The translations under genes and the position numbers were made by a program. From the NCBI GenBank assembly GCA_903911355.1, contig CAIWDD010000092.1, positions 1 to 64,000 of the forward strand: 64,000 nucleotides of DNA, read 5' to 3'. Source of the stretch: an uncultured Nodularia sp. (GTDB lineage: Bacteria > Cyanobacteriota > Cyanobacteriia > Cyanobacteriales > Nostocaceae). The notes beneath the pieces are model-generated. The model did not search any database. It was not told the DNA's origin and was given only the letters and a program-made list of their open reading frames with translations. This document shows, one piece after another, positions 37,883-43,880 of this stretch; within the stretch, counting starts at the first letter, position 1; the number at the start of each line of letters is the position of its first letter.

Positions 37883-37943
37883 ATCAAGAGCGGTAATATT
37901 ATCCTGATAACCTGTAAATGTTCATTTTTAACAATGTTTGCTG

Positions 37944-37962
37944 TCATCATTGTCAATGATGA
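37944..37962. promoter_or_regulatory. operator-like palindrome upstream of the nifH-element recombinase gene
   Basis: TCATCATTG-T-CAATGATGA is a perfect 19-bp palindrome 30 bp upstream of the recombinase start codon at 37993. It adjoins AACAATGTTTGCTG (37930-37943), which is also found upstream of the nifD-element recombinase. Function as a repressor or activator site is inferred. Confidence 0.5.
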
Positions 37963-37992
37963 ACAGTTTTTTTATCAGGGTAAATCTAGGGT

Positions 37993-39396
37993 ATGAACAG
38001 AACACAGGAAGCATTTGCCGATTTTCACCAAACAGCCAGGAGCGACGGGGGATATATAGGTAGAATGCAAGCAGTTACAAATCAAGAAAATCACCTGATA
38101 GCAAAACTAGAAACGGAATTAAAAGCCGTAAATAATAGACTCAAAGCTGCTAGGGTGAATGTTTCCGTCAGAAAATCTGGTAAGTCACTACAACTAAGAA
38201 GCACCCTACCCATTAAACCAGGAGATTTTGACAAAAACGGTATAGGAACAAAGCAATATGATATTTCTTTGGGTATTCCCTTTAATTTTGATGGCTTACG
38301 GACTGCAGAAGAAGAAGCCTATGAGCTAGGAAAGTTAATAGCCAGAAAACAGTTTCAATGGACTGAAAAATACTTAGGTAAAACTCGCAATAAAGTTACC
38401 AACAAAACCATTGGTGATTTAATTGCAAATTTCGAGGTGAATTATTTTCAAACTAGAAAACGTAACCTGAAAAGTGAAAATACATTTAGTAGCTATTTTT
38501 ATATTGCTCAAAAACACCTACCCAAGGAGAAATTAGCAATAGATATTAACTTTATTACGGCTGTAAAACTTTGTAATTCTTCAGATAGTGTGAAAAATGA
38601 GCTAATTAAAGTTATTCGGGTGCTGTGTAAATGTTCTGGTTTAGAAGTCCCAGAACTGAGTAATTTAAAAATCAAACCTACTGCTCAACGTCAGCGTGAT
38701 ATACCCAGGGATGTAGATATAGAGCAAGAATATCTCAAGTTTGAAACCTACTCAATCAACCGCCCTAGTAAATTACTCACCAGGGAAGATAGAAATAATT
38801 GGAAACTATGGCGCTGGGTATACGGAATGTTAGCGACCTATGGATTAAGACCTAGGGAAATTTTTGTTAATCCTGATTTAGATTGGTGGTTATCTTCAGA
38901 TAATATCGTGAATACTTGGCGAGTAAATCAAGAGTGCAAAACCGGGGAAAGGGAAGCTTTACCATTATATCCCCACTGGGTAGAAACCTTTAATTTAAAG
39001 ACTGACACAGAGGCTATTGAATTATTAAAAGCCAAAATTCACGGCAAAGTTACCAATAAACAAATAAATTCCGCTCGTCATGGTACGGACAGATGGTTTA
39101 GATTTGTGGGTATCCCTTTTCAACCTTATGATTTACGCCACGCTTGGGCGATTCGCGCCCATTTAATGGGGATTCCTATTAAAGCTGCTGCTGATAATTT
39201 GGGTCATTCCGTAAATATGCACACATCTATTTATCAAAGGTGGTTTAGTTTAGAAAATCGCAAGGTGGCTATTGCACAAGCTATTAGTAAAAAGTCGCAG
39301 ATGGAAGAGTTGCAAGATATGGTTTTTCAGTTACAACAGGAAAATGAACGGTTGAGATTTGAAAATGAAGGATTGCGTTTACGGTTGAATGTTTAG
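37993..39396 (+). CDS. XisA-type tyrosine recombinase of the nifH element
   Basis: 467-residue paralogue of the nifD-element recombinase, alignable throughout. Catalytic residues: Arg in GLRPREIF near residue 292, YDLRHAWAIR near 378, NLGHSV near 401 and the Tyr of HTSIYQRWFS near 413. The segments LRSTLPIKPGDFD and AEEEAYELGKLIARKQFQW also correspond. The C-terminus again forms a short ENERLRFENEGLRLR coiled coil. It presumably recognises the CTTCACG borders rather than CGGAGTA. Confidence 0.94.
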   Translation: MNRTQEAFADFHQTARSDGGYIGRMQAVTNQENHLIAKLETELKAVNNRLKAARVNVSVRKSGKSLQLRSTLPIKPGDFDKNGIGTKQYDISLGIPFNFDGLRTAEEEAYELGKLIARKQFQWTEKYLGKTRNKVTNKTIGDLIANFEVNYFQTRKRNLKSENTFSSYFYIAQKHLPKEKLAIDINFITAVKLCNSSDSVKNELIKVIRVLCKCSGLEVPELSNLKIKPTAQRQRDIPRDVDIEQEYLKFETYSINRPSKLLTREDRNNWKLWRWVYGMLATYGLRPREIFVNPDLDWWLSSDNIVNTWRVNQECKTGEREALPLYPHWVETFNLKTDTEAIELLKAKIHGKVTNKQINSARHGTDRWFRFVGIPFQPYDLRHAWAIRAHLMGIPIKAAADNLGHSVNMHTSIYQRWFSLENRKVAIAQAISKKSQMEELQDMVFQLQQENERLRFENEGLRLRLNV

Positions 39397-39606
39397 GTTG
39401 AACAGGTGTGGTTAATTAAATGGCTGGAGAAAATAAATTTAAAATAAATCTTAGGGTGTGTTGTCGCCCAGCACACCTTTGAATTAAGTTTTCCATTTGG
39501 GGGAGATTTTCGCACCCAGAGGCGCACAGACAGGCACAGAGAGAGTTATTGTATTTCTATGCTGCAATCAAGGTATTAAATCTCAGATAATTTTTACACC
39601 AGTTGA

Positions 39607-41679: not shown

Positions 41680-41772
41680 AAATCCTCTGGTTCTAACCCG
41701 GTTTTCTTAGCAATCTAAGCAAGCATTTTTGAGCCAATTTCATCACCATCTCAAATTCTAGTTTGTCAGCAA

Positions 41773-43527
41773 TCACTTTTTCTTCACAAAGATATTCACA
41801 CTCACCCCTACCTGAATATTAAATACATTATAAACAGGTTTATCTGTCCGCTTTCTGATATTACCGCCTAAATCAAAAATATAGATGTTAGTAAATTCTT
41901 TTTCCAGAAATTCACGCATTCCATCAAAAGATAGGGCATCAATAAAACCGTTATTAGTGACAAAAGCAATAATCCCCTCCTCCCCAATTCTATCACTCGC
42001 CCAGCGAATGGCTTTGACATAGGTATCTGACAGTTTATTTTTATTTGTCGCCTTTGAGGCTTTGGCGTAGGTTGCAGCTACCCGGTCATCTATACCAGTT
42101 TTATCTTTATTACTATATTTCCTATTTTTATTATTATCATTTTCATTCATCTGACCGACATTATAAGGAGGATTCCCAATAATCACAAAAATATCTGATT
42201 GTCTTTGTCTTTTTACCCGTTGCATATTTTCCGGGCTGAATAAATCTAACTGTGTAATATTTTGGTCTTCAAAGGTATCAACTAAACATATTCCTGCAAA
42301 GGGTTTATATTCTCCCACCTGCTCAAAATATTCATGTTCAATATTGAGGGAGGCAATATAATAAGGTAACAACATCACCTCATTACAATGTAACTCATGA
42401 TCATATTTGTGAGGTAAAGCGGACTTTTGGATCTCGACAATTTCCCGCATTACCCGGATGATAAAGTTACCAGTCCCCACAAAGGGGTCAAGGATATGTA
42501 CACCTGGGTCAACTAAGGACAGATTAAACTCTTTTTGTAAAATCTCTTCTACACTCTTGACCATAAAATTTACAATGGGTTGGGGAGTATATACAATCCC
42601 GTGGGTATCTGCAACTTTGACGGAAAAACCTTGAAAAAATCGCTCATAAATTTTATTGAGAAAGTCTTGCTTGCGAGAAAAATCATCAATGGTGGCGGCG
42701 GTTTCTTCAATTGCACCATAAAATCTATCTAAACTACTTAAAAAATGACTCCTACTAAAAGACCTGGAAGTTAATGCATTAATTACCTTCTCAATTTCTG
42801 CTGCAATAATATTACGTTGGGTAAAGTCAGGATTGTTAAAGACACTTCTAAAAATCCGCTCGGTTAATAAATGCTGAATTAACATTTCTTCTACCGCTGC
42901 TTCTGACAAGTTCGGGTTAATTGACTGGCGACAAAGTTGGAAGAAAGCACCAAAAGCATCAATAAACTGTTTATTCTTCTTTTTCTGTTCCCGAATTAAT
43001 TCTAGTAAAGCCGTTGCGTGTTCCTTCACCCGCACACCAAACTCTTCGACTGCTTTATCCCATTGTTCAATAGCTGGGGGGCGATATTCAAATAAATGTC
43101 GGACTACATCGACTAAATTTTGGGGTTTGGTGATGTCTTCATCGAGAATACATTTACCATCTTGGTAGAGAATGGCTCGATCTGGTTGCTGAAAAATAAT
43201 ATTATCTTTGGGATAACCCTTAGCGAATTTTTTCTGTACTTCTTTTTTTAAGTCGTCTTTCGTGTCTTTAGCTTCCCAGTAAGCACGGGGTAAATTATAG
43301 TCATCTACTAAAGCTCCATCTATTCGTAGCTGTTGTTTTTTTTCTCTTTTTAGGCCATATTCTTGGATGAGAGTCCATTGAAACTGTTGACCGCAGGATT
43401 CGAGTAACTTTTGAAAAGCAGCTTTAACGGCGGTTTCGTGGACAACGCCCAATTTTTTAAACTGTTCTAATTCTTGATAATACTGCTTAACAGGTTTGTG
43501 AGTTGTCTTGAGATTAAGAGTAAGCAT
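41773..43527 (-). CDS. restriction-modification protein, N-terminal half (nuclease and adenine methylase)
   Basis: 584-residue protein. Residues about 70-130 look like a PD-(D/E)xK nuclease (RIDGALVDDYNLPRAYWEAK). Residues 310-560 are an N6-adenine methyltransferase: motif I region VHILDPFVGTGNFIIRVM and catalytic IIGNPPYNVG, then GIIAFVTNNGFID. It ends NIFVKKK, where related enzymes continue directly into the target-recognition part found in the next gene. Such a module inside the nifH element could favour retention of the element. Confidence 0.82.
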   Translation of the reverse strand: MLTLNLKTTHKPVKQYYQELEQFKKLGVVHETAVKAAFQKLLESCGQQFQWTLIQEYGLKREKKQQLRIDGALVDDYNLPRAYWEAKDTKDDLKKEVQKKFAKGYPKDNIIFQQPDRAILYQDGKCILDEDITKPQNLVDVVRHLFEYRPPAIEQWDKAVEEFGVRVKEHATALLELIREQKKKNKQFIDAFGAFFQLCRQSINPNLSEAAVEEMLIQHLLTERIFRSVFNNPDFTQRNIIAAEIEKVINALTSRSFSRSHFLSSLDRFYGAIEETAATIDDFSRKQDFLNKIYERFFQGFSVKVADTHGIVYTPQPIVNFMVKSVEEILQKEFNLSLVDPGVHILDPFVGTGNFIIRVMREIVEIQKSALPHKYDHELHCNEVMLLPYYIASLNIEHEYFEQVGEYKPFAGICLVDTFEDQNITQLDLFSPENMQRVKRQRQSDIFVIIGNPPYNVGQMNENDNNKNRKYSNKDKTGIDDRVAATYAKASKATNKNKLSDTYVKAIRWASDRIGEEGIIAFVTNNGFIDALSFDGMREFLEKEFTNIYIFDLGGNIRKRTDKPVYNVFNIQVGVSVNIFVKKK

Positions 43528-43873
43528 ATAAACCCTGATATTTAAATGATTAAAAAATCTAGCTAAAAAATCCAGATTGTCAAAATACTATACTGTAAAT
43601 TTTTAGTGTAATTACTGTATTTGTCAAAGTGGGAAACTTCTCAAACAAAAGTATTATTTTTTAAAAGTCTGTAACCCGTTTATCAAAATTTATGTATACC
43701 TCTTGACACTAGGAGGTAAATAGGGTAAAAAGATAAGTTAAAAGCCAATAAGAAGCCAAGAAAAAGCCTATTTGAGAAAATTTCCTGCGGTAAAATTAGG
43801 GCAAAGTTAGGGCAAGATTAAATCATCATCTGATTTCAGAGAGTAGAAGAAACCCCAGAAATCAGGGCTTAAT
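43528..43873. other. non-coding right end of the nifH element
   Basis: No gene is seen. An inverted repeat TACCTC-N10-GAGGTA is at 43697-43718. The stretch would contain the promoter of the restriction-modification gene and whatever the recombinase needs beside the right border. Confidence 0.55.
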
Positions 43874-43880
43874 CTTCACG
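43867..43880 (-). repeat. nifH element border repeat, right
   Basis: GCTTAATCTTCACG on the plus strand, core CTTCACG at 43874-43880. Partner of the repeat at 37869-37882 (12 of 14 identical). Confidence 0.88.

Follow-up and report, generated by a model that had tools for sequence, protein, structure and literature searches.

Among the closest described relatives of the element studied here is one that interrupts nifH1 of Nodularia spumigena CCY9414. That element is 5.2 kb long, has 8-bp repeats (CCGTGAAG), and encodes XisG, a recombinase of the XisA/XisC type that is 48% identical to XisA; recombinases of this type have an R-Y-R-Y catalytic signature with Y in place of H (PMC3610870). The same paper cites, for excision, a demonstration of nifH1 element activity in N. 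spumigena AV1, reports a second nifH in this species, and raises as an open question how repeats occurring 111 times in the genome are distinguished (PMC3610870). In Anabaena sp. 90, nifH lies in parts of 153, 273, and 444 bp and a 5.9-kb excision element has been described (PMC3542288), and a survey of 38 genomes recorded 34 elements in nifD and 19 in nifH, the latter in 6 variants (PMC4874684). We analyzed 64,000 nucleotides of contig CAIWDD010000092.1 from an uncultured Nodularia sp. (this whole stretch is hereafter called the window), in which nifH is broken after codon 145 and resumes 5,998 bp further on.

An XisG element within nifH

The initial annotation of the window had proposed that the two nifH parts are separated by an element with its own XisA-type recombinase and could be joined exactly through CTTCACG borders, all of which is confirmed by the coordinates of both halves, the border repeats, and the tyrosine recombinase gene inside the element (Table 1). 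The border repeat begins at nucleotide 430 of nifH. The exact direct repeat is only 7 bp long (CTTCACG, the reverse complement of CGTGAAG), and an extended comparison by eye matches at 12 of 14 positions (GCTTTACCTTCACG vs GCTTAATCTTCACG). Joining the halves core to core yields a single open frame of 299 codons. In the same-genus genome G009, whose nifH is uninterrupted, the gene product agrees with this frame at 290 of 296 compared residues, and the DNA shown at the junction is identical; neither an XisG match (E <= 1e-100) nor an XisA match (E <= 1e-200) was found in G009. Because CTTCACG occurs 190 times in the window's own genome, the 7-bp repeat alone is no proof of an element, and the proof is comparative, namely the same insertion codon and the same core across distinct loci.

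A search for XisG across 217 genomes from the family recovered its clade in 40, the window's own genome included, with at least 78% identity; among the matches listed, the next recombinases beyond this clade had at most 52% identity. The family genomes together with 22 named loci gave 64 sequences for examination, 62 of them with an XisG-clade gene, representing 40 distinct loci. In all 40, nifH resumes at the identical codon beside the recombinase gene, and it stops at codon 145 in all 34 loci whose far border falls within the examined stretch (this border lies outside it in L009, L010, L011, L020, L025, and L046). The core CTTCACG is invariant at 40/40 left and 34/34 right borders. The 34 complete elements range from 2,495 to 9,329 bp, and 31 of them have an exact border repeat of 8 to 16 bp, longer than that of the window. 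Named hosts of these loci include Nodularia, Sphaerospermopsis, Dolichospermum, Aphanizomenon, Anabaena, Cylindrospermum, and Chrysosporum. Tree distances of xisG and nifD from the same 40 loci have a correlation (r) of 0.51, which was reached in 0 of 2000 permutations, and the two trees disagree within Dolichospermum; such a pattern fits a history of mostly vertical descent plus losses, in which exchange may also have taken part. For six of the 34 loci (L022, L023, L024, L038, L048, and L057), the alignment to the first nifH part does not start until residue 46-48, consistent with a further nifH element like that of Anabaena sp. 90.

The window's element shares with the N. spumigena element the same gene, the same recombinase type, a similar length (5.2 kb in the latter), and a recombinase gene that adjoins the second part of nifH in opposite orientation. 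Their core is also the same, as the repeat given for N. spumigena, CCGTGAAG, reads CTTCACGG on the other strand. XisG of the window is 89% identical to the recombinase of Nodularia genome G102, whose element measures 5,173 bp vs the published 5.2 kb. With insertion at the CCGTGAAG site, direct repeats at both ends, and an XisG-clade recombinase inside, the window's element is a further instance of the already described nifH1/XisG element. N. spumigena differs by its reported second nifH. An intact second copy, which the initial annotation had suggested would make the interrupted one dispensable, was looked for and not found in the window's own assembly (3.97 Mb in 136 contigs, 99.55% complete): its five Fer4_NifH matches in all are the two nifH halves, ChlL, and two weak matches (25.5 and 21.9 bits). 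ChlL was ruled out as a second nifH, with 488.4 bits for TIGR01281, over its cut-off, and a TIGR01287 score below its own. For Anabaena sp. 90, the published part lengths would place the second nifH break at approximately nucleotide 426, i.e., at the window's site, and the 5.9-kb element, matched by size and position, has its recombinase on the opposite strand as in the window; this strain differs by a further, 80-kb element in nifH (PMC3542288).

Considering the 19 nifH elements in the published survey (PMC4874684) and the 40 of 217 genomes with the XisG clade here, the statement in the initial annotation that nifH interruption is seldom reported was not borne out. The second element that it had noted in nifD is present (Table 1), but the view of the two as an unusual double lock on nitrogenase is not supported, as an XisA-type gene, counted whether or not it lies in nifD, was detected at E <= 1e-200 in 37 of the 40 XisG-clade genomes, so the occurrence of both elements in nifHDK is common. 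The nature of the element had thus been read rightly and its rarity wrongly.

Site choice, end motifs and the recombinase

Around the core, C at -6, T at -4, A at +10, and G at +12 are invariant at the 40 left and 34 right borders, and two of the four half-sites flanking the core are non-coding. The corresponding pattern, CYTN3CTTCACGN3ARG, has two occurrences in the window's own genome, which are the two borders, and its reversed control has 0. Over the 40 XisG genomes, exactly two matches were found in 30, three in 9, and one in 1 (G046), and the element-free G009 has one match, in nifH. The pattern was derived from the borders that it finds, and its informative part is the scarcity of other matches, with approximately 0.2 expected by chance given 190 cores. 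By scoring arm complementarity at 53 possible centres, a check independent of the chosen letters, the core middle was ranked 1/53 as dyad centre on both nifH borders. Symmetric half-sites around CTTCACG narrow the 190 cores to the two borders.

In four recombinase families (nifH/XisG, nifD/XisA, hupL/XisC, and nifD-895), each has its own motif near both element ends, with 11-bp pairs upstream of the recombinase start. In the XisG family, the leader (the region from the left core to the recombinase start) has the 3' end AGGGTAAATCTAGGGTA in 35 of 40 loci, exact or with one C/T difference, and AGGG[CT]A is present within the last 200 bp of all 34 elements, with 152 occurrences in 11,220 bp of ends vs 123 in 201,507 bp of interior. 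AGGCTA takes this place in nifD/XisA elements (left 13/13, right 11/13; 40 in 4,290 bp of ends vs 45 in 128,622 bp), and no AGGG[CT]A was found at the ends of these 13 elements. For hupL/XisC, a motif pair upstream of the recombinase gene and a recurrence of that motif at the opposite end had been predicted before the elements were retrieved, and AGGGAA was found in 20/20 left and 20/20 right ends (80 in 6,600 bp of ends vs 132 in 134,343 bp). TTTAAG[CA]C is present in 5/5 left and 4/5 right ends of nifD-895 elements, a small sample of 5; among 12 leaders of this family, L055 is without the motif. All these end-motif counts were taken over related sequences and hence are not independent trials. 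Of the 13 nifD/XisA elements, 2 have exact pairs at 11-bp spacing in their far end, and the self-match of the leader is highest at lag 11 for XisG and XisA, while for XisC lag 12 (0.45) is slightly above lag 11 (0.43). Motifs of other families were also detected: AGGCTA in 4/34 left XisG ends, AGGGAA in 9/34 right XisG ends and 3/5 right nifD-895 ends, and AGGG[CT]A in nifD-895 elements at 1/5 left and 2/5 right ends. Arm sites for XisA-family recombinases were not recognised in the literature searched, whose coverage does not extend to older XisA/XisC papers, and we do not claim their absence from print.

Residues R286, Y379, R382, and Y414 of XisG are conserved without exception in an alignment of 33 recombinases from three families and form the R-(Y for H)-R-Y signature of the XisA/XisC type. 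The Pfam Phage_integrase score is 21.2 bits, under the curated cut-off of 27.1; nonetheless, the predicted fold clearly matches tyrosine recombinases. The model (mean predicted local distance difference test score, pLDDT, 81.1; predicted template modelling score, pTM, 0.46) consists of a long helix, a beta-beta-beta-alpha domain (58-117), a helical core-binding domain, a catalytic domain, and a C-terminal coiled coil. Foldseek placed XerA first and a lambda excision complex fifth, and a second structure comparison had full-length lambda integrase at the top (Z 12.6 over 310 residues, model 40-429, root-mean-square deviation (rmsd) 14.6). Together with an N-terminal domain in XisG that resembles that of lambda integrase, the family-specific end motifs look like arm-type sites and are probably bound by the N-terminal domain of the recombinase; for XisG itself, such binding is plausible on the predicted model. 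More generally, we lean towards the view that the XisA family works like lambda integrase, each recombinase reading an extended core with inverted half-sites as well as an arm motif of its own, repeated at 11-bp spacing at either end of its element, and that recombinase and motif diverged together. The arm motifs would then likely be AGGGYA for XisG, AGGCTA for XisA, AGGGAA for XisC, and TTTAAGMC for the nifD-895 recombinase.

With anatomy, exact restorability, and conservation observed and no second nifH found in the assembly, the identity of the element and its excision are close to certain, and the whole account of a heterocyst interruption element of the nifH1/XisG type is very likely correct. 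In vegetative cells, nifH would be broken by the element. During heterocyst development, XisG made by the element and resembling lambda integrase would cut and exchange strands within CTTCACG between the two inverted half-sites, so that the element would exit as a circle and nifH be restored exactly. The N-terminal domain of XisG may hold the element ends on AGGGYA in 11-bp-spaced pairs, and this binding could keep the enzyme off the adjacent nifD element, whose cores and arm motif (AGGCTA) are different. We infer that excision is timed in heterocyst development and that the nifH and nifD excisions are independent of each other.

Several points weigh against parts of this account. The sequence alone is silent on when or whether excision occurs in this organism. 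The half-site pattern may be sufficient for site choice by its uniqueness, but it was read from the same sites and is not proof. A dyad common to the nifD sites was only partly seen, as the core middle ranks second on the left and outside the top four on the right. The arm motifs were picked only after the element ends had been read, no Pfam arm-binding domain matches XisG even at E <= 10, and the N-terminal domain folded alone gave a low-confidence model (mean pLDDT 51.8), which was not used.

Alternative explanations, cargo and neighboring genes

The end motifs might instead be control elements of the recombinase gene (an operator or ribosome-binding region), with far-end copies that exist for some other reason. 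Such a role would agree with a left motif pair that abuts the start codon and with the dyad and subsequent T-run of the leader, but the motif recurs at the far end without any xis start in 34/34 XisG, 11/13 XisA, 20/20 XisC, and 4/5 nifD-895 elements, and AGGCTA is unlike a ribosome-binding site, which makes this explanation rather doubtful. A related proposal is that the leader forms an RNA attenuator (a terminator hairpin) controlling xisG. The window's leader has a predicted folding energy of -27.1 kcal/mol and a run of seven T behind its stem, its length is constant (111 bp in 33 of 40 loci and 110 in 4), and 88.9% of cells in the alignment pair; however, this inviting fold and alignment were supported neither by covariation, which does not exceed that of shuffles (3 two-sided pairs vs a shuffled mean of 3.0; likewise for the outer stem), nor by RNAalifold, which yields a different and weak structure, nor by the terminator scan, which lists nothing at the leader. 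An attenuator thus appears improbable. In Nostoc sp. RI_552 (L008:5863-9001), approximately 3 kb lie between the left core and xisG in place of the outer half of the leader.

With regard to cargo, xisG is the sole gene common to all 34 complete elements. It could be supposed that the element is retained as a carrier of defence genes (restriction-modification (R-M) and PDC-M52) instead of a developmental switch, considering that the window's cargo matches a type IIG enzyme and PDC-M52A/B and that defence-type matches are frequent among 123 cargo open reading frames (ORFs). We consider this unlikely, as cargo varies between elements (R-M homologues in 7, the protease-like gene in 8, and ORF106 in 10 of 34) and the R-M gene of the window is broken, with five in-frame stops between its halves. 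A further alternative is a dead insertion, in which nifH would be a pseudogene in a strain no longer fixing nitrogen. The assembly has the interrupted form only and cargo genes are partly broken, both of which this alternative would accommodate, but the ratios of nonsynonymous to synonymous substitution rates are low for xisG (0.097-0.211, nine comparisons) and joined nifH (0.049-0.085, seven comparisons), the frames on either side of the insertion are open, and all of the 40 xisG and 28 joined nifH reading frames examined are stop-free. In addition, nifB, nifS, nifU, nifK, and nifE are intact with scores over NCBIfam cut-offs, and hetR is present in the host. A dead insertion is therefore highly improbable, and we retain the excisable nifH1/XisG element as the explanation of this locus.

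Table 1. Features of the window associated with the nifH and nifD elements
Feature	Position	Strand	Basis or detail
nifH first part, codons 1-145	43875..44309	-	Fer4_NifH 4.3e-78; TIGR01287 over profile positions 1-139
nifH second part, codon 146 to stop	37412..37882	-	Sequence and profile comparison
nifH interruption element, 5,998 bp core to core	37883..43880		Borders by repeat and nifH breaks
Left crossover site, CTTTAC-CTTCACG-ATCAAG	37870..37888	+	Core 37876-37882
Right crossover site, CTTAAT-CTTCACG-GATAGG	43868..43886	+	Core 43874-43880
Conserved leader, left core to recombinase start	37883..37992	+	Dyad ~37919-37965, then T-run
Proposed left arm sites, two AGGGTA copies spaced 11 bp (37977 and 37988)	37977..37993	+	Motif comparison
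XisG, tyrosine recombinase, 467 aa	37993..39396	+	R286-Y379-R382-Y414 signature
Aspartyl-protease-like protein, PADLOC candidate PDC-M52B	39607..40026	-	8.5e-77
Small protein, PADLOC candidate PDC-M52A	40019..40339	-	3e-40
Specificity half of type IIG/ISP-like R-M enzyme	40345..41679	-	Profile and PADLOC matches
Methyltransferase half of same type IIG/ISP-like enzyme	41773..43527	-	Parted from specificity half by in-frame stops
Proposed right arm sites, AGGGTA at 43722, AGGGCA at 43798 and 43809	43722..43814	+	Motif comparison
nifD interruption element, 2,049 bp core to core	33881..35929		Cores CGGAGTA 33874-33880 and 35923-35929
Proposed left arm sites for XisA, two AGGCTA copies (33975 and 33986)	33975..33991	+	Motif comparison
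XisA-type recombinase of nifD element	34002..35444	+	50% identical to XisG

Among the 123 cargo ORFs of the 34 elements, R-M, PD-(D/E)XK, ParE-like, and PADLOC candidate families are frequent (raw frequency, with no background comparison). The type IIG-like enzyme has several in-frame stops also in L008, is a single open frame in L014 and L065, and has its halves farther apart in L020 and L024. The nifD element beside the nifH element is near-minimal, xisA being the sole listed ORF of at least 80 amino acids (aa) inside it. In other Nodularia genomes (L009:2078-3466; G098, G099, G100, and G102), the XisA frame has in-frame stops where aligned to the XisA of the window, which could reflect either a later start or a broken gene.

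The minus strand of the window carries nifB, fdxN, nifS, nifU, nifH, nifD, nifK, and nifE. An interrupted hupL was ruled out, as both matched pieces lie within a single 536-aa open frame (17112-18539), and the hupL border pattern is absent from the window's own genome. Between nifU and nifH, a 139-aa ORF (44604-45023) has no NCBIfam match at 1e-10; it is a putative truncated haemoglobin.

Comparison with other recombination systems

As the element is already known, what is added here is a site definition that picks out the two genomic borders and a candidate second recognition code for each recombinase family. If true, this would explain how a repeat of 7-8 bp can be singled out from some hundred copies and how several elements per genome could be excised without crossing, side by side in one heterocyst. 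Where nifH serves as a marker gene, a split copy may escape the polymerase chain reaction, a point made by the authors of the Anabaena sp. 90 study (PMC3542288).

The model of XisG aligns to full-length lambda integrase chains from residue 37-40 (Z 12.6 and 12.2), the N-terminal domain included. Lambda integrase differs by another domain arrangement, giving an rmsd above 14 Angstrom, and by an identity of only 12-13%; moreover, for XisG no accessory factor has been identified and arm binding is putative. The nifD/XisA and hupL/XisC elements of Nostoc/Anabaena (names from PMC4874684 and PMC3610870) have the same recombinase family and signature and the same layout of core, leader of approximately 110-125 bp, recombinase, and far end with the motif, but differ from the XisG element in their genes, cores, and end motifs (AGGCTA and AGGGAA, respectively).

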